Assembly (NCBI GenBank): GCA_022545895.1
Contig: JAKEIK010000307.1
Span: 1-43,901, forward strand
DNA length: 43,901 nt
Reading direction: 5' to 3'
Origin: Nitrososphaeraceae archaeon
Lineage (GTDB): Archaea; Thermoproteota; Nitrososphaeria; Nitrososphaerales; Nitrososphaeraceae
A model generated the notes under the pieces. It did no database searches. It worked only from the letters and a program-made list of their open reading frames with translations, and was not told the DNA's origin. Made by a program: the position numbers and the translations under genes. Shown here in pieces: positions 13,632 through 27,611 of the stretch (the first letter of the stretch is position 1; each line of letters begins with the position of its first letter).

Positions 13632-14675
13632 CTATGCGGGCTCAGTTATTGCATTCACACTTTGGTTCAATGCAGCCTCGGCTATATCCGCTCCATGCTC
13701 GGCAGTTCTCCTTATTTCTGCCAAGATCAATGGGATAGGTGTTGTATCGTAATCTTGAAATTTGTTCAACATTGCTAGAATATCATTTTCAGCCGAAGCA
13801 ATACTCTGTACTTGGTCTGTTATCTTATCGGCTGCATAATAATCCCCTTGCAAGAACGCTCCTACAGAATTGTCTACTAATTTGAGTGACATCTCGCTCA
13901 TCTCTTTAATTTTCAACAATATTTCGTTAGGCAACTTCATATCATTTTGCTGACATTCATAGGCAATGCGTGAGCCATGATCAGCAATTCTTTCAAGACT
14001 TTTTCCGGCTGCACGATAGGCAAAACAGTCTGTTGGTCTCTTTAGCCCAATTTCATACAAAAGTCGTTCATGCTGCGATGCGATTACGAGATTTCTAAGC
14101 AGATACAAGCTGAATCTATCAACTTCATCATCTGCTCTTATTGTATTCTTTGCTAACTCCTTATCGTTGCTGCACAATGCGGTGATAGCATCCCTATGCA
14201 TAGATACCCCTATCAGAAACATCCTTCTTAAGGCGGTGTTCATTGACAATCCTGCTGCTATGCCCATTAAAATCGTGACAGTTATGAGCTGTGATGAATC
14301 TTCAATTATCTCGGCGCCAATAAGATTTCTGTTAACTACCTCTCTCACAGCATCACGTTGTTTAGGAAGAAATCTTTCTCCCTCAGGTTTTATGTGTATA
14401 ATATTGTAACCACGCAAATACATAGATATTACTTTGCGTTTCACAGTATTGGCGCCTTCCTTGCCACTTACTTTGCATGTACATTCTTCGGTAAGAGATG
14501 TTCTCATAATATTTGGAAATACTGAAAGTGAGCTATTCATCCCTCGTACGATAGTAACCGGGTCGCCTACTCTGAGTTGCATTTCAGCCATCCATTTTTT
14601 TGGGAGTGAAATTATGAAAGTTGATCTACCCGTAAATTGAAGTTTGCGAGTTTCATTATTATCCATGGGCGGCAT
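13632..14675 (-). CDS. PhoU-family protein with N-terminal AbrB/SpoVT-like DNA-binding domain
   Basis: RKLQFTGRSTFIISLPKKWMAEMQLRVGDPVTIV followed by a PhoU-like helical repeat region; adjacent to phoU/pst. Confidence 0.88.
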   Translation of the reverse strand: MPPMDNNETRKLQFTGRSTFIISLPKKWMAEMQLRVGDPVTIVRGMNSSLSVFPNIMRTSLTEECTCKVSGKEGANTVKRKVISMYLRGYNIIHIKPEGERFLPKQRDAVREVVNRNLIGAEIIEDSSQLITVTILMGIAAGLSMNTALRRMFLIGVSMHRDAITALCSNDKELAKNTIRADDEVDRFSLYLLRNLVIASQHERLLYEIGLKRPTDCFAYRAAGKSLERIADHGSRIAYECQQNDMKLPNEILLKIKEMSEMSLKLVDNSVGAFLQGDYYAADKITDQVQSIASAENDILAMLNKFQDYDTTPIPLILAEIRRTAEHGADIAEAALNQSVNAITEPA

Positions 14676-14773: not shown

Positions 14774-15424
14774 TCATCTTCGAGGGCTAGAGTCAGCAGT
14801 GACAATGTAGTGAACACAATCGCTGATATAACAGGCATGGTCGGCAATTCTTTCTAAATATCTTAGTATAAGCAGTGCAGAGATAAAACACCTCACTTCT
14901 GCATAGGCATATTCTCTGTCCCGTGGTGTCAGCACGAATCTCAAGTATGATCGATAGAGTGCGTCCACACTATCATCCATCATATAGAGCTTTTTTGAAG
15001 TGTCTTTGTCGAGTTTCTTTAGTGATTCCACGCTCAGCTTAATCATGTTTTTAGCTGTGTTTGCCATTTCGATAACGTATGACTTGTCGCAGTCTGGAAT
15101 AGCCCCAATCGCTTCCAGTACATCTGAAATATCATATGCATACCTGCCAAATCTTGAAAAGCCGTATGCGACATCCATACAAGACTGGATGAATCTAAGA
15201 TCTCTTGCTACCGGTTGGTATCTTGCTATTAATTCAGTTGCAAAATCCGCCACTTCTAGCTGAAGAATTCTGAGCTTTTCTGAATATTCAAAGATCTGCG
15301 GCCGAAGCATAACTCCCTTTTCATATGATTCTAAAGCCGCATTAACAGACTCCTCGGACAGAGTGGCCATGTCCATTATTAGATTTCTGATGCGATCTAA
15401 CCCTATGTCAAGAAGCCGAGCCAA
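14774..15424 (-). CDS. phoU: phosphate-signalling protein PhoU
   Basis: 216 aa helical PhoU; RDLRFIQSCMDVAYGFSRFGRYAYDISD and LRYLERIADHACYISD motifs; downstream of pstB. Confidence 0.9.
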   Translation of the reverse strand: MARLLDIGLDRIRNLIMDMATLSEESVNAALESYEKGVMLRPQIFEYSEKLRILQLEVADFATELIARYQPVARDLRFIQSCMDVAYGFSRFGRYAYDISDVLEAIGAIPDCDKSYVIEMANTAKNMIKLSVESLKKLDKDTSKKLYMMDDSVDALYRSYLRFVLTPRDREYAYAEVRCFISALLILRYLERIADHACYISDCVHYIVTADSSPRR

Positions 15425-15432
15425 GCTACGTA

Positions 15433-16254
15433 CTATCCAAACTTTCCAGAGATGTATCTCTCTGTCAATTCTTTTTCTGGATTCTTGAATATCTGACTTG
15501 TTGCTCCGTATTCAATCATTTCTCCAAGATACATAAAAGCTGTGAAATCTGACACTCTTGCAGCCTGCTGCATATTATGTGTCACGATTACAATGGTAAC
15601 ATGTTCCTTAAGACTTCGTACAAGCTCTTCAATTTTTGAAGATGCCAATGGATCTAAAGCTGATGTAGGCTCGTCCATGAGTAACACTTCTGGCTGCATC
15701 GCGAGTGCTCTTGCAATGCAAAGTCGCTGTTGTTGGCCTCCAGACAAACTCATGCCTGGCTTCTCTAGTTCAGTTCTTACCTCCTCCCATAATGCAGCAC
15801 CTTTTAGACTTTCCTCCACAACTTCTGCGATTAGATTCTTGTCTTTAATCCCGTTTAGTTTCAACCCAGCAGCAACATTATCGGATATACTCATTGTCGG
15901 AAATGGATTTGGTTTTTGAAACACCATTCCTACACGTCTCTTAACAACTACTGGATCAATGGATTTATCATATATATCTGCGCCATCAACCAACACTTGA
16001 CCGTCTACTCGAGCATTGGGAGTCATTTCATGCATACGATTGAGACATCGAATCAATGTAGTTTTGCCACATCCAGACGGTCCTATAAAAGCAGTTACGG
16101 ATTTATCTTTAATATTTAAATTAATATTTTTTAATGCCTGCTTTCGACCAAACCAGGCATTTATTTCCTTAATAACAACTTTGTACCTATCAGTGGTTTC
16201 TATTGGCCCAGCTACCGCTGCTTCCTCCTCTCGCATTACTTCTTCCACAGTCAA
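15433..16254 (-). CDS. pstB: phosphate ABC transporter ATP-binding protein PstB
   Basis: Walker [26 protein letters not shown] signature, [24 protein letters not shown] typical of PstB. Confidence 0.96.
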
Positions 16255-16324
16255 GGACCTAGTAAATTAGGGCATTTCAGCTACATATGGATTGTCTATA
16301 TAGTTAGTATAGATGAATATGGAA

Positions 16325-17233
16325 TCAAGCCTCTGCTCTTACGGTAAATCCCTTTTTGCGAGCTAGCAACCTCAGGCCCACATTCATTCCCAAAACCATT
16401 AAAATGAGAATTAACGCAGCTCCCCATCCAAACGCATGAGCTGATTCGTATGGTTGACTTGCCAACCTCCAGATTCTTAATGGAAGTGCATCAACAGGAC
16501 CTTCAAGCCCCGAAAAGAAAAGACTTGTCCCCAAAATAGTCATAATGAGTGGTGCTGTCTCTCCTGCAATTCTAGCAATTCCAAGACCAATCCCCGTTAG
16601 AACTCCACTTTTGGCTGTAGTCAGTACAATGTTCATTGTGATTTTGGCCTTGGATATACCCAGTGCGTAACCGGCTTCCCTGAGAGAATGAGGAACTATC
16701 CTAAGGGTCTCCTCGGTAACTATGACCACTATGGGCATCATTATTATAGACAGCGATAAAGCACCTGCCCATACCGAAAAAGATCCCAGGAACAGGACAA
16801 TAGTGACATAACCTACTATGCCTATAACTATTGAAGGAAGTCCTGTCAAGATATTATTAAGGAATCGTACCACTGTAGGAAATATTCCGTTTCCCGCAAA
16901 TTCTGAAAGATATATGCCGGCAAGTACGCCAACAGGGGTTGCAATTAATGAGGCTAATCCAACAACTATTATAGTCCCTTGGATTGCAGGGCCTATCCCA
17001 CCTTTTCCAGAGCCGATGGATCCTTGAGGAGCTGTTAGGAACTCGAAACTTAATGCACTGGCACCATTTTTGATTACTTCTAATAGTATGCTACCAAGCG
17101 GGATTATAGCCGCGACAACGCAAACTAGAGCAAATACAGTAACAAGATTATCAGTAATAATTCGTGTGCGGTATCTCTTTTTCATTTCTTCATGAAGTAT
17201 CATCCTGTAATTTTTTCTTTCTTTACTGCTCAT
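16325..17233 (-). CDS. pstA: phosphate ABC transporter permease PstA
   Basis: MetI-type permease; LREAGYALGISKAKITMNIVLTTAKSGVLTGIGLGIARIAGETAPL. Confidence 0.95.
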   Translation of the reverse strand: MSSKERKNYRMILHEEMKKRYRTRIITDNLVTVFALVCVVAAIIPLGSILLEVIKNGASALSFEFLTAPQGSIGSGKGGIGPAIQGTIIVVGLASLIATPVGVLAGIYLSEFAGNGIFPTVVRFLNNILTGLPSIVIGIVGYVTIVLFLGSFSVWAGALSLSIIMMPIVVIVTEETLRIVPHSLREAGYALGISKAKITMNIVLTTAKSGVLTGIGLGIARIAGETAPLIMTILGTSLFFSGLEGPVDALPLRIWRLASQPYESAHAFGWGAALILILMVLGMNVGLRLLARKKGFTVRAEA

Positions 17234-18111
17234 CTTCTTCCTTTTTCTCCTGTTGGCACTTTAACCATTTTCCTTACAAGTAGCCTAGCTCCAATATTGA
17301 TAATCATAGTGAGAATTAGAAGAACTGCACCAAGACCTATCAGGGCTGATAGATGCAAATCAGAAGAGGCTTCATTAAATTCATTGGCAATCAGACTTGA
17401 GAGAGTTTGACTCTGAGAAAAAAGTGTTGTTGGAATAGCAGCTATGCCTATAACGTTACCAATTACTAGTGTTACTAATATAGTTTCACCCACTGCCCTG
17501 CCAAGACCTAGAATGGCAGCCCCAAGAATTCCTGCTTTTGCGTATGGAAAGACAGCTATCCTTACTGCTTCCCATCTGGTGGCACCTAAGCTATACGCTG
17601 CTTCTCTTTGGGAGTTGGGGACTACTCTCATAACCTCGCGGCATATTGAAGATATTATAGGGATGATCATTATTGCAAGGACTATTCCTGCTGTAAAAAG
17701 ATCTAGTCCAAATGGATATTTTGCGAAGATTGGTAAGGACCCGTGAAACGCGTTATACAGTGGCATTTCAATCAAATCCCTTATCCAAAATCTAAAGACA
17801 AACAGTGCCCAGAGCCCATAGATGATACTTGGCACAGCAGCTAATAATTCGATTACGAACGATATAGGAGCAGCGAGACGTGGCGGTGACATTTCAGATA
17901 CGAATGTAGCTATTCCTAAGCTGATGGGAACGCCGATCACCATTGCTATCGCGGAACTTGCAAGAGTGCCCACAATGTAAGGCAATGCGCCAAAAGATTC
18001 CCTGCCTTCCACAGCATTCCAATCAGTTCCAGTAAGAAATCCAATTACCCCCTCATATGAAAAAATTTGAATGGATCCTCTGAATACAGAAAATGTAACA
18101 AGACATACCAT
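17230..18111 (-). CDS. pstC: phosphate ABC transporter permease PstC (true start probably upstream of the listed ATG)
   Basis: PSIIYGLWALFVF, QREAAYSLGATRWEAVRIAVFPYAKAGILGAAILGLGRAVGET; overlaps pstA by 4 nt. Confidence 0.93.
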   Translation of the reverse strand: MVCLVTFSVFRGSIQIFSYEGVIGFLTGTDWNAVEGRESFGALPYIVGTLASSAIAMVIGVPISLGIATFVSEMSPPRLAAPISFVIELLAAVPSIIYGLWALFVFRFWIRDLIEMPLYNAFHGSLPIFAKYPFGLDLFTAGIVLAIMIIPIISSICREVMRVVPNSQREAAYSLGATRWEAVRIAVFPYAKAGILGAAILGLGRAVGETILVTLVIGNVIGIAAIPTTLFSQSQTLSSLIANEFNEASSDLHLSALIGLGAVLLILTMIINIGARLLVRKMVKVPTGEKGRR

Positions 18112-18348
18112 AAGTACTGTGTATGCTGCTGCAAAAATTACAATCGCTCTGAATATTTTATCACTCCTTCTCTTTCCCCTGATGAATCGATTAGATAGAA
18201 ATTGTCTATTTTTAGAAGTGAACGCTGCTATGATCCATACACCTAATGCTAGCCTCTATAGTGTATTTAGATATATTATGATTGCATAACAGAAGCCTAT
18301 AGATACATATGTTCTATATAGAAAAAATGGGATGGAGGATTGTCCCCC

Positions 18349-19476
18349 TTAGAGTAGGGGCTTACCTTTGTATGTCAGCGATTTCAGTGTATCTTGGTCA
18401 AGTTTCACGACGGTATCAGGCAGCGGAACATAGTTAAGAGATTCTCCAGTCTTTTGTCCATCGGTTATTGCCCAAGCTATAAAATCTACTAACGCCTTGG
18501 CTTTTGGTTCATCTATATTAGGATCGGTGCTCAACTCCTTGTAGAGTAATAGATATGAGAAGCTCGCTATAGGATAGGAATCCTTGCCTCCGGCATTAAC
18601 CATCGTAACGTTTGTCCAAGGTTGGTCCCCTTTAGGCAAAGCTCCTGATTGGGCCGCAACGGCCGCTCTCGTAGATGCGATGGAAGGTTCGATGAAATTG
18701 CCTTCTTTATTTTGGATAAATGCGAATGGTGTTTTTGTTGTCAAGGCATAACTCAGTTCAATATATCCGATCGTGTTTGCCGTTCCTTTTATAGCATTGG
18801 CAACACCTTCATTTCCTGGTGCACCAATACCAGTTGGCCATGCCACGGACTTGCCTTTTCCGACTTGTTGACTCCAAGCAGAACTAACGTTAGAAAGGTA
18901 GTCTGTCCACACAAAAGTAGTTCCAGAACCATCAGATCTATGTACTACTACAATATCATCTCCAGGAAGTGTTTTATCCGGATTCAATGACTGTATTTTA
19001 GGATCATTCCATTTTGTGATCTTACCCAAAAATATGTCCCCAAGCACTTCTCCTGTCAATTTAAGCCCCTTATCTGGGATACTCGGAATATTGTAGGCTG
19101 CTACCACAGAACCTATTGTTTCAGGTATGTGAACGGCACCGGGTGCGCTTTGCATTTCTTGTGCTGTAAGAGGAGCATCGGTAGCTCCGAAATCGACTGT
19201 TTTGGCAGTGAATTGCTTGACACCGCCTCCACTTCCAATTGATTGATAGTTAATGTCGACTTCTGGTTTTATTGTTTTGTAGTCTACTCTCCACGTATCT
19301 ATTAATGGAAAAGGAAATGTCGCCCCGGCCCCATTAATTATTATTTTGTTTTGGGCATGAACACTGAATATGCTAGATGGGATGATGATCCCCAGTAGCA
19401 GACCAGCTACAATGCTCATGATTATCATGTTCTTTTGCATATTAAATTCACGTAGTAGCACTTTGTTCTTATTCAT
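18349..19476 (-). CDS. pstS: phosphate-binding protein PstS
   Basis: Signal-like N-terminus, INGAGATFPFPLIDTW, SIGSGGGVKQF, VHRSDGSGTTFVWTDYL. Confidence 0.96.
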   Translation of the reverse strand: MNKNKVLLREFNMQKNMIIMSIVAGLLLGIIIPSSIFSVHAQNKIIINGAGATFPFPLIDTWRVDYKTIKPEVDINYQSIGSGGGVKQFTAKTVDFGATDAPLTAQEMQSAPGAVHIPETIGSVVAAYNIPSIPDKGLKLTGEVLGDIFLGKITKWNDPKIQSLNPDKTLPGDDIVVVHRSDGSGTTFVWTDYLSNVSSAWSQQVGKGKSVAWPTGIGAPGNEGVANAIKGTANTIGYIELSYALTTKTPFAFIQNKEGNFIEPSIASTRAAVAAQSGALPKGDQPWTNVTMVNAGGKDSYPIASFSYLLLYKELSTDPNIDEPKAKALVDFIAWAITDGQKTGESLNYVPLPDTVVKLDQDTLKSLTYKGKPLL

Positions 19477-20678: not shown

Positions 20679-22223
20679 TTGAAAATATCTGTCATAGATA
20701 TTGGCTCTAACACTATAAAGTTAGTCAATTATAATGTTAAAAGGGATCTCTCATTCACAGCTTTTCAACAAGAGAGTACGAAAGTTAAACTCGGTGAATC
20801 ATTAAATCGTGATCACAATCTAAGTGATCAATCTATCGAGAGGGCTATAGATACTCTTCTATTATACCGTGATATCATTAGAGTGGAATCTATAAAACGA
20901 TGTCTTTGTGTTGGGACAAGTGCCGTAAGGGAAGCCCAAAATAGTGCTCATTTCGTAGACCAAGTTTATAAAAAAACTGGCTTCAAAATAAGAATCTTAT
21001 CCGGAAAGGAGGAAGCTTATTATTCCTATTTAGGAGCATCAATGTTTTCCTATCTTCCAAATGCACTGTTCTTTGACCTAGGCGGAGGATCTTTAGAATT
21101 GGTGTATACAGAAGACTTCAAGATCAAGAAGGTAGATTCACTTTCCCTTGGTGCACTACGACTTACTCAAATTTATGGTAAGAAGGATAGTTCCTTTTCT
21201 AGGAAGGATTCTGACGATATGGTCCAAAAAATCAACGATTCTCTTCCCACTAGAAAAAGCTATGGAATAGGGATAGATACTGTACTTGCTGGAGTTGGTG
21301 GAACTTTAAGAACCCTTACAAAATACGATCAAGGGTCTAATGAATATCCATTAGAAAAGATTCACAATTACAGATTGAAATTATCTGTAATTGAATCCAT
21401 CTGTAAGGATTTGGATTCTATGAATGATAAAGAAATTTCCGGTCTGCATGCAATGGATGCAACTAGAGCGGAAACAATTGTTGCCGGTTCGTATGTTATT
21501 CATACTCTAATGAAGAAACTTGAATTCGATGAGGTTATCGTAAGTGCCTATGGTTTACGGGAGGGAGTTATCGCAGGATTCCTTCGAAATCGGGATTTTT
21601 TTAACTATCAAAAGTTGGAAGACTTGGAAAAACAAATTCCAAAAATAGTTTCTAATAATTATGAACCCAACATTCAAAATATAGAACTAGACAACATTCT
21701 CCGGCATATGATCTCCTACGGATTTTTAAAGGAGAGAGAAGTTGAGATCTTGTTATTCGCAATACGCACATTGACAAAACTCCGTGCCACAAACAAGCTC
21801 CTTGATCTATTCTACATGATATTAGACGAAGATTATCCGTATCTTACACACAGAGAACAGCTTGTATTGGCCTTGTCTATAGTACACTCCAAAAAGACAA
21901 AGACTTCCGATTGGTTGTATTCTAAATATAAGTCAATATTGAAACCACAAAATCAGAAATCAATTCAGAAAATAGGAATCTTGCTCAAACTGAATGGTCT
22001 GATTGTTAAGACTCGATCTAGAATTAAACTTAGAGAATCCAAGAATGATGGAATTATCATAGACATATCTTCTTCAATAAGATCTTACCCTGCTATTCTG
22101 CTTCAAAATATTATCCAAAGGGTCAGTGAGGTTTTTGGGATTGTGATAGAATGTTATTTGCCAAATAATCTCGATAGACCAATACATACCGAAAATGGGA
22201 TGATTACAGTTAGATCTAAGTAG
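20679..22223 (+). CDS. Ppx/GppA-family exopolyphosphatase-like protein
   Basis: ISVIDIGSNTIKLVNYNV, CVGTSAVREAQN, FFDLGGGSLELVY, GVGGTLRTLTKY; C-terminal HD-like helical region. Confidence 0.92.
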   Translation: MKISVIDIGSNTIKLVNYNVKRDLSFTAFQQESTKVKLGESLNRDHNLSDQSIERAIDTLLLYRDIIRVESIKRCLCVGTSAVREAQNSAHFVDQVYKKTGFKIRILSGKEEAYYSYLGASMFSYLPNALFFDLGGGSLELVYTEDFKIKKVDSLSLGALRLTQIYGKKDSSFSRKDSDDMVQKINDSLPTRKSYGIGIDTVLAGVGGTLRTLTKYDQGSNEYPLEKIHNYRLKLSVIESICKDLDSMNDKEISGLHAMDATRAETIVAGSYVIHTLMKKLEFDEVIVSAYGLREGVIAGFLRNRDFFNYQKLEDLEKQIPKIVSNNYEPNIQNIELDNILRHMISYGFLKEREVEILLFAIRTLTKLRATNKLLDLFYMILDEDYPYLTHREQLVLALSIVHSKKTKTSDWLYSKYKSILKPQNQKSIQKIGILLKLNGLIVKTRSRIKLRESKNDGIIIDISSSIRSYPAILLQNIIQRVSEVFGIVIECYLPNNLDRPIHTENGMITVRSK

Positions 22224-22232
22224 GGATTTGTC

Positions 22233-22943
22233 ATGACCTATATGAAACAACATAGGAAAGAAAGTGATAATAATAAAGGTAAACTTGTGGTGGTCGAAGG
22301 TATAGACGGATCTGGCAAATCCACACAGATTAGACTGCTCGAAAAATGGTTTCGATCAAAAAATATCCCTGTGTTTTTGACTGAATGGAATTCATCAGAG
22401 ACGGTGAAACAAATTACATCGAAAGGCAAGAGAAAAGGGAGGCTAACGCCTATTACTTTCTCTTTGCTTCATGCCACCGATTTTGCAGACAGATATGAAA
22501 GAAATATACTCCCCCTCTTGCAATCCGGGTATGTAGTTCTAGCAGACCGTTATATTTACACCGCTTTTGCAAGAGATATAGTTAGGGGCTGTAATCCTAA
22601 ATGGGTAAGAAAGGTTTACGAGTTCGCAGTGAAACCGGATATTGTGTTCTATTTTAGGGTACCTGTGGACATAGCTGTCGAACGAATACTGTCTGGCAGG
22701 CCCAAGTTGAAATATTATGAGGCAGGTATGGATTTGAATCTAAGCAACGATCCATACGAGAGTTACAGGATCTTCCAAAGTCGGATTATTGAACAATATG
22801 ATAAACTGGCAACGATAGAAAACTTCACCATAGTCGATGGAACAATGGAAATCGAGGAGTCTCAGAGATTTTTGAGATCATTAGCTACTACACTTTTCCC
22901 GACAAGTATTCCAAATCGTAAAAGGAGGTCAACTGCTGTATGA
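22233..22943 (+). CDS. thymidylate-kinase-like P-loop kinase (copy 1)
   Basis: KLVVVEGIDGSGKSTQIRLLEKWF Walker A; DRYIYTAFARD DRY motif; ATDFADR. Confidence 0.82.
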   Translation: MTYMKQHRKESDNNKGKLVVVEGIDGSGKSTQIRLLEKWFRSKNIPVFLTEWNSSETVKQITSKGKRKGRLTPITFSLLHATDFADRYERNILPLLQSGYVVLADRYIYTAFARDIVRGCNPKWVRKVYEFAVKPDIVFYFRVPVDIAVERILSGRPKLKYYEAGMDLNLSNDPYESYRIFQSRIIEQYDKLATIENFTIVDGTMEIEESQRFLRSLATTLFPTSIPNRKRRSTAV

Positions 22944-23656
22944 GTAATTTGCGAAGTAAGAACCTAAGAAAAGCCAATTTCTACGGACATGCTATTCCGT
23001 ATCTAGAGAAAATTGAACTTAAGGGAAAGTTTATCGTAATAGAGGGTCCTGACGCATCTGGAAGAAGTACCCAAATTGAATTGTTATCTTCGAAACTTGA
23101 AGCAGATGGTCACGCCGTAATGAACGCAGGCCTCAGACGGTCGGAACTAATAGCTGAGGGAATATTAGAAGCAAAGAGAAGTTTTGTTTTGGGCAAAAGG
23201 ACCATAAGCTTATTTTATGCAGCAGATTTCGCAGATCAGCTTGAAAATAAAATTATACCCGCGTTAAGAGCAGGTTACGTAGTTCTATCTGACAGGTATA
23301 TCTATACTTTATTGGCAAGAGATGCAGTTCGTGGTATTAGTAGAGCATGGTCCCATAATTTGTACGGTTTTGCTTTAAAACCTGATATCTTATTTTACTT
23401 AGATGTAGATCCCAATGAATTGATACACAGAGTATTCGAAAAGAACTCTTCCCTTGATTATTACGAGTCTGGTGCGGACCTTGGATTATCAGAAAATATG
23501 TTAGAATCATTTCTGATGTATCAAAAGCTCATTGCAAAAGAGTTCAGACGTATGCAGAGAAGATTTGGAATTATACCTATTAATGGTAATAGGGCTATAA
23601 TGGAAATAAGTGTTGATCTACAAAAAAGGATAGACGAGTATTTATTAATTCGTTAA
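22940..23656 (+). CDS. thymidylate-kinase-like P-loop protein (copy 2, divergent Walker A GPDASGRST)
   Basis: KFIVIEGPDASGRSTQIELL; SDRYIYTLLARDAVRG; co-linear similarity with the upstream copy; 4-nt ATGA overlap. Confidence 0.8.
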   Translation: MSNLRSKNLRKANFYGHAIPYLEKIELKGKFIVIEGPDASGRSTQIELLSSKLEADGHAVMNAGLRRSELIAEGILEAKRSFVLGKRTISLFYAADFADQLENKIIPALRAGYVVLSDRYIYTLLARDAVRGISRAWSHNLYGFALKPDILFYLDVDPNELIHRVFEKNSSLDYYESGADLGLSENMLESFLMYQKLIAKEFRRMQRRFGIIPINGNRAIMEISVDLQKRIDEYLLIR

Positions 23657-23951
23657 TTCGCTAGATTAAGGATAACTAACTGGTCTTCATTGATTATTGG
23701 AATATTTTATCCATAAAGAATCTATCATCCTTATGCTTGGCTTGTATTTGAAAAAATATTGTTAAAATAATGAAAATCGTATTTAATCCAATGTTCACCT
23801 GGAGCGGCGGAAAACTTTTGCAGAATTGATATTGTGAAACAGGATGTCCTCCTCAATATGTTAATCCCAACAGCACCCACTGTATGATGCAACCATCCGT
23901 AAATAGATATATTATATATTATATGTCTGCCCACCTTCCTTAGGATTAACT

Positions 23952-24452
23952 ATGGAATTGTTTATTCTGAGACATGGAGAGGCTGGTCAAAGGTTATCGT
24001 CAAATCCGAGCGATCGCCAACGCTCGTTGACAGCTACCGGTAAGGAAGAAGTCACGGAAGTCGCGAAGGCCTTAAGGAAGACTGGAACTAAATTTGATGT
24101 AATCGCTTCAAGTCCACTAAAAAGGGCTTATGAAACTGCAGGTATTGTCGCGAATGTATTTAAGATGTCCAATAAACTTCAAGCTTGGAGTGAATTAGCT
24201 CCTGAAGGCGTAAGGACAGAAGTGTACCGGAAGATATGTCGACTTAGACAGGAAAACTCTATACTTCTGGTTGGACATGAGCCTCAGCTGAGTGAGATGA
24301 TCAATGATATTATACATACAAGTAGATCAAAATCGGGCAGGATAGTACTAAAAAAAGCCGGGTTAGTAAGAATAAGGATCCTTGCATGTAATCCCGTTCT
24401 TAGTGGTGAATTACGATGGCTATTAACACCAAAGATATTGACTAGCAAATAA
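23952..24452 (+). CDS. SixA-type histidine phosphatase (phosphoglycerate mutase-like)
   Basis: MELFILRHGEAGQR catalytic RHG; SSPLKRAYETA; LLVGHEPQLSEM. Confidence 0.88.
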   Translation: MELFILRHGEAGQRLSSNPSDRQRSLTATGKEEVTEVAKALRKTGTKFDVIASSPLKRAYETAGIVANVFKMSNKLQAWSELAPEGVRTEVYRKICRLRQENSILLVGHEPQLSEMINDIIHTSRSKSGRIVLKKAGLVRIRILACNPVLSGELRWLLTPKILTSK

Positions 24453-24536
24453 TAAGTTCAAGACATAGGGGACTCGGTAGATCACAATACTTCACTTTGG
24501 CAAAGAATATGAGTATTATTCCATCGTTGGATCATT

Positions 24537-24851
24537 ATGAGTTCTCTGAATAGTAAGAGTCATAGCTTAAGAGAATTGGGGTGGAAGGATGAAAACCAGT
24601 TATTATATAATAATAGCATATTAGCTCTTCGAGAGTTATTGATGTCGAGAGAGCAGGGTGGAGAAGGGGGAAGAATAACAAAATCATCTAGCAAGATTCA
24701 CCTAACACGTGATGGATTGAAATATTATTTTGTGGAAGTTACAGATGATACTGGCTCTCTCTACCTAATTGAAGCATATGGAGAAGACGCAATTGAGCTA
24801 CACGAAGAGAGTATGAAGACTGGAGAAGGATCTAGCGACGATTCCAGCTAA
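24537..24851 (+). CDS. hypothetical protein
   Basis: 104 aa lying between two histidine phosphatase genes. Confidence 0.5.
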   Translation: MSSLNSKSHSLRELGWKDENQLLYNNSILALRELLMSREQGGEGGRITKSSSKIHLTRDGLKYYFVEVTDDTGSLYLIEAYGEDAIELHEESMKTGEGSSDDSS

Positions 24852-24949
24852 TAGTGAGGTATTTTTCACGCGTTTCTCACCTCATCTAATCTTTTATTCA
24901 TTTGAGTTCAGAAACTACTGTTCGAGGAACTTCCAGAACACGGTTGAGA

Positions 24950-25459
24950 CTAAGTAGAATACTCTAGGGGTGACAGTTCTTTTGGACGCCACATTTTGGC
25001 CAATTCACCTTTCTTGTCATCCTTTAGATCAGGCCATCTTTCAATCAATAATTTCACATATGCCAAACCGCAAGTAGGCATTGTCATTGCGTTACCAGTT
25101 AGTATTTCCACCAGATGTTCTACGTCGGGATTATGACCAACTATTAGTACTGTATCATACTGACTGGTTTGATGTCGTAACGCATTGAGGTACGCCGAAT
25201 ATCCTGCCCGGTACAACGAAGAATCAATGGAAATTTCACCACTATAACGAGACACTTTGGCAACTTTCTCAGCCGTAGACCGAGCTCTGGCCGCTGAAGA
25301 GCTTATTATTAGTTGTGGGACAAGTCGTTCTTTAAGTAACACTTTACCCATTCGTGGTGCATCACGTTTTCCACGATCATTAAGGGGCCGGTCATGATCT
25401 GGCAAGTTTGTAAATTCCCAGCTGGACTTGGCATGACGCATTATCAACAAGTTTTTCAA
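24950..25459 (-). CDS. SixA-type histidine phosphatase (second copy)
   Basis: MKNLLIMRHAKSSWEF; SSSAARARSTAEKV; VLIVGHNPDVEHLVE. Confidence 0.88.
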   Translation of the reverse strand: MKNLLIMRHAKSSWEFTNLPDHDRPLNDRGKRDAPRMGKVLLKERLVPQLIISSSAARARSTAEKVAKVSRYSGEISIDSSLYRAGYSAYLNALRHQTSQYDTVLIVGHNPDVEHLVEILTGNAMTMPTCGLAYVKLLIERWPDLKDDKKGELAKMWRPKELSPLEYST

Positions 25460-25631
25460 ATGGTATATAGTTATCTTCCTGTATGAAATTTAATTTTTGC
25501 GATGGATACAAAATCATATTGCGAATACATTGCGATACTTGAGGCTAAAATCTTGTTCACTCCTGGTTAGTTGGTTAGTTCGGACTATTCAAAGCTTCTC
25601 CGAAATAGTTCACTATACCTTATGGTAAATT

Positions 25632-25865
25632 ATGGGAATACGCTTCATAAACCAAATAGACCTAATTCGACACACTAAACATATGTTCAATAAAGATTCT
25701 TGTAGAGCATGTGGCAGTTATTTGATACCCTCATCAGTTTGCAATATTTGTAGGGAATATGTCTCATGGATATGCGCTAAGTGTAACAAAATCGAAGATG
25801 TTACTCATTCTCATAACTATTGTGGAATATCTTACGCTCTTGAAAAAGTAGTCATGGAGAAATAA
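25632..25865 (+). CDS. small Cys-rich zinc-binding-like protein
   Basis: CRACGSYLIPSSVCNICREYVSWICAKCNKIEDVTHSHNYC. Confidence 0.65.
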   Translation: MGIRFINQIDLIRHTKHMFNKDSCRACGSYLIPSSVCNICREYVSWICAKCNKIEDVTHSHNYCGISYALEKVVMEK

Positions 25866-26054
25866 AGACTATATAATCTATTATTCATTAAGTGATCACA
25901 TAGGGATACCCTGATAGAGTTGCTTATCTTCTAATAGGTATCAATATTGTGGAAATGAAATTGGGGAGTGCGCTTGTAATAGAGGCAAGGATAATTGGGC
26001 ATAAAGAAGCAAATGATACTAATCTGTCTACACACACAAAAGTTGTTAACAATC

Positions 26055-26240
26055 TTATATTTTTCGAGGGTGCAACTGCGTGCGATTCAACGGTTTTCTG
26101 AAATTAAAGTTGTGTATTCCATCCGCCAAAAATGAATTACTGCACGGGATATTACTTTTGAGGAACGTTGACCACGATACCTTGCAAAAAAGACATTTGA
26201 AATCGCTATTAACTATTGCTAACCTTTTTGGTGTTGTCAT
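26055..26240 (-). CDS. small Cys-rich protein, paralogue of 2731..2931
   Basis: SDFKCLFCKVSWSTFLKSNIPCSNSFLADGIHNFNFRKPLN aligns with HDFKCRLCSTKWLNYVENNTPCPSPSQEDGRHNFDFSKPIK. Confidence 0.65.
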   Translation of the reverse strand: MTTPKRLAIVNSDFKCLFCKVSWSTFLKSNIPCSNSFLADGIHNFNFRKPLNRTQLHPRKI

Positions 26241-26759
26241 TAGGTTTTTCTCTAATTTACTAAGGAATCCGTTTAATATAACGACTTTACTTATGATCTA
26301 TATAGAAGACTGTAGGTCTGAATATAGAGCGAAAGAGAGCCAAGCTCAAGAGATTTTTACTTTAGAAACTATAAATTTAATATTCTTCCCAATCAAACTC
26401 CAAGGCTTTTTGGGCAGGTTACAAAGAAATTAACGATAAAAAATTCGAGCTGCTGTTGCTATTGCCACTCTGCCTAGTGTACACACTCGATCTGATCCCG
26501 ATTATAGTACCAATGTCTTTTATATTAGATCGTCTAAGGGAGCATGCATTATCTATATAGTCTAAATGATTTTTGTGCCCATTTTTAAATAGTTCATCAC
26601 TGAACTGATGTCATCATTCTATAGTATCAATATAATTTTGTTGGTACTGATATGTTGGACCATCGAACTGAAAAATTAATCGTGATTAGCTGCGTGATAG
26701 TACCTTCATTAATATATCCCATAAGCCTAATAAATATAAACTCCTGTTAGAACTCGAAT

Positions 26760-27611
26760 GTGTTAGACATTTTACCTTTCTTGACACAATTGCACGAGAG
26801 CTTTCAAAGAGTCAATAATCGAATCAAAAAGTACCTCAAAGATCCAAAGGCAAAAAATATCCACGATTTAAGAACTTCGATTAGACGTCTTGATGCTGCC
26901 TATTCAACATTGCCTAAAAAATACAGAACTGGATCATCAACGTCCACATACATTCTTAGCTGTAAAGAGCTCTTTAGAATCAATAGCGAAATAAGGGATT
27001 TAGATATTATTTATGAAAAATTACAAAAATACCCCCCAAATGACAGTAGAAATAAGATTATTGACTCTTTGAAAGGAACACGAGTGACAAAATTGGAATA
27101 TGCAAAGAACATAGCTCTTGCTCTAAACAATACCGACGCAAGCAAACTTCTAGACGAGATCAAGGTAACCCAAAAAGAGCTGGAAAAGAGATATAACAAG
27201 ATAGTAGCGAATTTGATTTCAAAGATAGAAACTAACTTTCCAATAGTGATAACTGATTCGACTAAAATAGAAGAATTACATGACTTGAGAAAAGATTGCA
27301 AGAAATTGAGATATATGTTAGAATTGCTGCCAATTGAAAACAAAAAGGCATCGGAAATGAGAAAGACTCTCCAAAAAATCCAAGACAGTCTAGGCTTGAT
27401 CCATGATTATGATTTTACGATAAATCATTTAGCATTAAATGAGCAACCATCGAATGAAGTTCGCGAGATAGTCAATAATGAGATGCAGGAGAGAAAATTA
27501 AGTTATGAGGGCTTCCTAAGGTTTTGCACCAGACGGCTGCATATGTCTCCCGATTCCTTCTTAATTAGGATTAGAAGTTTCAATTCAACCCTAGAGAGTT
27601 CGAGTGTGTAA
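26760..27611 (+). CDS. CHAD-domain protein
   Basis: 283 aa; NIHDLRTSIRRLDAAY and ELHDLRKDCKKLRYMLELL conserved His/basic CHAD motifs, LGLIHDYD; GTG start. Confidence 0.85.
   Translation: MLDILPFLTQLHESFQRVNNRIKKYLKDPKAKNIHDLRTSIRRLDAAYSTLPKKYRTGSSTSTYILSCKELFRINSEIRDLDIIYEKLQKYPPNDSRNKIIDSLKGTRVTKLEYAKNIALALNNTDASKLLDEIKVTQKELEKRYNKIVANLISKIETNFPIVITDSTKIEELHDLRKDCKKLRYMLELLPIENKKASEMRKTLQKIQDSLGLIHDYDFTINHLALNEQPSNEVREIVNNEMQERKLSYEGFLRFCTRRLHMSPDSFLIRIRSFNSTLESSSV

Follow-up and report, generated by a model that had tools for sequence, protein, structure and literature searches.

The window, by which we mean the whole stretch of 43,901 nt of Nitrososphaeraceae DNA that was analysed, carries two adjacent genes for proteins of the dTMP kinase (TMPK) fold, K1 and K2. 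We propose that they form a heteromeric polyphosphate (polyP):nucleotide phosphotransferase of the PPK3 type, with K1 as the catalytic and K2 as the accessory subunit, a reading based on sequence comparison to which we assign a probability of about 0.78. Since the two proteins are kept beside polyP genes and have lost the residues that recognise thymine, they are very probably the halves of a polyP-handling kinase. An earlier note on this DNA had suggested that the pair may work on polyP and nucleotides and not in dTMP synthesis. This idea stands, because the genome possesses a separate canonical TMPK and the gene neighbourhood is conserved in relatives, and the lost thymine-site residues lend it further support.

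The genes that the note had listed (Ppx, two kinases, SixA, an unknown protein, SixA and CHAD) were all found where it had placed them, and their features are given in Table 1.

Table 1. Genes of the kinase pair and its surroundings in the window.
Feature	Position	Strand	Evidence
PhoU-PstB-PstA-PstC-PstS phosphate uptake locus	14774..19476	-	ORFs and sequences
Ppx/GppA-family exopolyphosphatase, 514 aa	20679..22223	+	PF02541 6e-51, 174 bits
K1, TMPK-fold kinase, proposed catalytic subunit	22233..22943	+	PF02223 3e-25
K2, TMPK-fold paralogue, proposed accessory subunit	22940..23656	+	PF02223 7e-20
SixA-type histidine phosphatase	23952..24452	+	TIGR00249 100.9 bits, cut-off 74.5
104-aa orphan ORF	24537..24851	+	without Pfam/NCBIfam/PHROG family
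Second SixA-like histidine phosphatase, RHA motif	24950..25459	-	PF00300 4.2e-9, above cut-off
CHAD protein, polyP-binding module	26760..27611	+	PF05235 8e-22, 78.8 bits

The tight run of ppx and the two kinase genes is present, with the 4-nt overlap of K1 and K2 as described, but the gap between ppx and K1 measures 9 nt instead of 10. Ppx reaches 253 bits with TIGR03706, which is under the cut-off of 307. Both histidine phosphatases had been described as RHG proteins. The first is identified as SixA by TIGR00249; the second carries RHA and scores 55.6 bits with the same model, below the cut-off. As the second gene lies on the minus strand it is outside the K1/K2 transcript; it is retained at same-genus loci. 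The CHAD gene follows about 3.1 kb downstream of K2, and the adjoining pst-phoU locus is complete, as had been noted. Beside pst, at 13632-14675, lies a gene for a protein with an AbrB (MazE-like) and a PhoU domain, possibly a phosphate-response regulator. With tblastn, the 104-aa ORF matched nothing significantly at related loci. We rejected it as a conserved part of the module after tblastn and the Pfam, NCBIfam and PHROG families yielded no homologue; it is probably lineage-specific, and its membership of the module is doubtful.

Judging by its sequences, the pair is probably not the dTMP kinase of the cell. The canonical TMPK of the genome lies on a different contig (C303:3073-3608), where it is split by a frameshift. 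The gene has an uninterrupted match in same-genus relatives, so that the frameshift is probably an assembly error. A canonical TMPK is also present in all 12 tested pair-bearing genomes from elsewhere, in which it scores 130-190 bits with PF02223, compared to 45-96 bits for the pair. When 23 canonical TMPKs were aligned with 37 K1 and 37 K2 sequences, an arginine that we take to be the thymine contact, from the human and M. tuberculosis TMPK structures, was present in 23/23 TMPKs, replaced with phenylalanine in 37/37 K1 (Phe84 in the window) and with phenylalanine or leucine in K2. A proline and a tyrosine that are invariant in TMPKs are replaced in K1 with asparagine (in a TEWNSS motif) and arginine, respectively, and the replacements at all three positions are themselves invariant in K1. 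K1 and K2 furthermore share extra conserved lid residues, which align with gaps in most TMPKs.

The two proteins differ in their P-loops. The motif is intact in the window K1 (GIDGSGKS), while in K2 (GPDASGRS) the lysine is exchanged for Arg42. K1 reads G[IV]DGSGK[ST] in 99/100 cases, all those in which the pattern could be located, and its P-loop and DR-motif residues are invariant. About 87 of 98 K2 proteins have arginine in place of the lysine, with lysine at 10 loci and one ambiguous case; the lysine-bearing K2 genes come mostly from Melainabacteria-type bins (e.g. L069, L072 and L109). In 98 of the 100 loci compared, K1 and K2 are direct neighbours with the same orientation; these loci cover Nitrososphaerales, Sulfolobus and no fewer than 15 bacterial phyla. 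One exception is genome G109, where about 200 kb of the same contig separate K1 from K2, the latter being accompanied by Ppx and CHAD. In a quick-search tree of K1, K2 and TMPK sequences, the canonical TMPKs are set apart from the pair (support 99) and K2 forms one clade (SH-aLRT 98). In both K1 and K2, the Nitrososphaerales proteins cluster with one and the same set of Acidobacteria, Gemmatimonadota and Verrucomicrobiota sequences (89 and 80), which is what a joint move of the two genes would predict. The Sulfolobaceae K1 fall outside the remaining K1. The AF2 models have high pLDDT values (91.2 for K1, 92.0 for K2), and for both the best match was ST1543 of S. tokodaii, which is also the best PDB match of K1 (PDB code 2plr, 2.7e-67).

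The clustering of the genes is far beyond chance. Genes for Ppx, CHAD, SixA, PhoU or PPK2 lie near 77/108 pair loci (18/20 in Nitrososphaerales, 51/80 in the wider set, 8/8 in Sulfolobaceae) but near 0/20 canonical-TMPK loci of similar length. These counts are rough, because bacterial loci are often short and the sets overlap slightly in the contigs they draw on. The linkage to polyP genes has no counterpart at the canonical TMPKs of the same genomes. Nitrososphaerales, Sulfolobaceae and many bacteria share this neighbourhood, and SixA is found beside the pair in all three. All eight Sulfolobaceae loci have the order SixA-Ppx-K1-K2, followed by CHAD at several of them (three at a stricter threshold), whereas the same genes occur in several orders in Nitrososphaerales and bacteria, often with Pst/PhoU; PstB and PstS each lie beside the cluster at 13 of the 20 Nitrososphaerales loci. 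On an Acidobacteria contig (L081:5503-6318) a PPK2 gene adjoins K1, and on a Chloroflexi contig (L120:8130-9721) two PPK2 domains stand in a row after CHAD. A search for PPK1 in the bacterial clusters returned nothing beyond one short match (L128).

Neither PPK1 nor PPK2 had been seen by the earlier note, and the window indeed contains none. Elsewhere in the genome, however, a different contig codes for a PPK2 (C259:485-1147, locus L036; 228 bits) that has the class III motif NRSHYE; PPK1 (PF02503) has no match in the genome. Contamination is an unlikely source of the PPK2 contig, as PPK2 occurs in 47 of 70 genomes from this family and the G+C content is 0.368, compared to 0.371 for the window. 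K1 was rejected as a PPK2 at the level of sequence, with no PF03976 match at E-values up to 1 and an hhalign probability of 21%.

In a sample of 150 Nitrososphaeria genomes, the pair is present in 41. Ppx likewise occurs in 41, 40 of which have the pair (Fisher p = 4e-34, with kinship ignored), and all 37 genomes with CHAD fall inside the K1/pair set. In each of seven genera in which both states occur, Ppx and CHAD track the pair; an eighth genus (g12) is mixed. PPK1 was found in 0/150 genomes, and the 22 genomes with PPK2 all belong to the pair set. This leaves 19 of the 41 pair genomes with neither PPK1 nor PPK2, and hence with no other polyP kinase of a known type. Across the phylum (397 genomes), strong matches to K1 were confined to Nitrososphaerales and one further family (f29), identified as Sulfolobaceae through a named Sulfolobus locus. 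A scan of GTDB contigs returned at least 523 relatives, and the best 80 of these include at least 15 bacterial phyla, according to their record labels.

The activity that we infer for K1–K2, together with its substrate, direction and subunit roles, would be as follows. K1, with its full P-loop, would perform the chemistry, transferring phosphate between polyP and a nucleoside di- or monophosphate. The likeliest direction would be the formation of ATP from polyP at low energy, although the reaction might be reversible. K2, which has the same fold and mostly an arginine P-loop, would be non-catalytic and could contribute structure, regulation or the docking of polyP. Ppx would take phosphate off polyP, CHAD would bind polyP, Pst/PhoU would provide phosphate supply and sensing, and SixA is a conserved companion.

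Two other explanations have to be weighed against a polyP phosphotransferase. The proteins might phosphorylate (deoxy)nucleoside monophosphates with ATP, as ordinary or broad-specificity kinases that supply or salvage nucleotides and merely travel with phosphate genes. Both exceed the cut-off of the NCBIfam dTMP kinase model TIGR00041 (95.0 and 84.4 bits, cut-off 83.25), and would therefore be labelled dTMP kinases by automated annotation, and ST1543 (52-53% identical) has been published as a dTMP kinase, for which reason K1 enzymes may accept dTMP. However, the genome has its own canonical TMPK, the thymine-site arginine, proline and tyrosine have all given way to other invariant residues in K1, and the lid contains an additional conserved stretch. 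Moreover, the linkage to polyP genes is missing at the canonical TMPKs of the same genomes, and the pair is lost along with Ppx and CHAD. We therefore consider such a nucleotide kinase unlikely. Slightly less probable still is a polyP-sensing regulatory pair, in which K1 and K2 would bind nucleotide or polyP and regulate Ppx, SixA or Pst while transferring no phosphate in bulk. The lost P-loop lysine of K2 and the adjoining PhoU/Pst and SixA genes would suit such a role, but it accounts poorly for the invariant P-loop and DR-motif residues of K1 and for the 19 pair genomes that have no other known polyP kinase.

If K1–K2 is indeed a polyP:nucleotide phosphotransferase, it would be the probable polyP enzyme of Nitrososphaeria, the class of ammonia-oxidising archaea, which is without PPK1 and often without PPK2. 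We lean somewhat towards a broader view, in which heteromers of an active K1 and an arginine-P-loop K2 are among life's main polyP kinases besides PPK1 and PPK2. Databases would list them as pairs of dTMP kinases and so conceal a distribution over at least 15 bacterial phyla and two groups of archaea; in many ammonia-oxidising archaea they would be the only polyP kinase candidate of a known type. NCBI-style annotation is predicted to mislabel this widespread pair as dTMP kinase. The family, so far cited from Crenarchaeota, would extend to soil archaea, Nitrospira, Acidobacteria, Chloroflexi and other bacteria; this spread into bacteria and the arginine P-loop of K2 may be newer. With one P-loop subunit active and the other apparently inactive, the model lends itself to a sharp test.

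The closest known system is the archaeal family 3 polyphosphate kinase (PPK3) of S. acidocaldarius, reportedly described by Hofmann et al. and said to be encoded by TMPK-annotated genes beside ppx, with two kinds of subunit. Eight Sulfolobaceae genomes carry the orthologous tandem next to ppx, the Sulfolobus-type proteins being about 46-54% (K1) and about 30% (K2) identical to those of the window. As would be expected of a PPK3, the window pair lies among polyP genes and is separate from the cell's own TMPK; its host, however, is a Nitrososphaeria archaeon with an additional PPK2. From its position and homology, the window pair is probably this archaeal PPK3. The ppx gene of S. acidocaldarius is Saci_2018 (PMC7831078), and a new polyP-synthesising enzyme or family of polyP kinases from Sulfolobus/Crenarchaeota is cited from Hofmann et al. 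(bioRxiv 2024, 10.1101/2024.08.28.610084; J Biol Chem 2026, 302:111283) in passages of PMC11677633 and PMC13318637.

The dTMP kinases, including ST1543 (PDB codes 2plr and 5h70), share the fold (TM of 0.95 with 5h70 in Foldseek when scaled to target length), the P-loop and the DR motif with the pair. Canonical TMPKs differ from it by their thymine-site arginine, tyrosine and proline, by the missing lid residues and by the P-loop lysine that is absent from K2. ST1543 itself has the features of K1. Its crystal structure was published under the name of a dTMP kinase, according to a reference entry in PMC10248530, and in a Dali search with the F. tularensis PPK2 it was the first-named structure other than a PPK2, after the PPK2s themselves (PMC4748334). 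PPK2 classes I-III have a TMPK-like P-loop fold, as does the pair, although their sequence similarity to K1 is negligible. In class II PPK2 an active domain is joined to an inactive one (PMC8776046), an arrangement that resembles K1 and K2 in outline but is divided between separate genes in the pair. Finally, a Sulfolobales cluster of SixA, PPX, dTMP kinase and CHAD is drawn in PMC10892726; its gene content is the same as in the cluster described here, and the dTMP kinase annotation is kept in that drawing.
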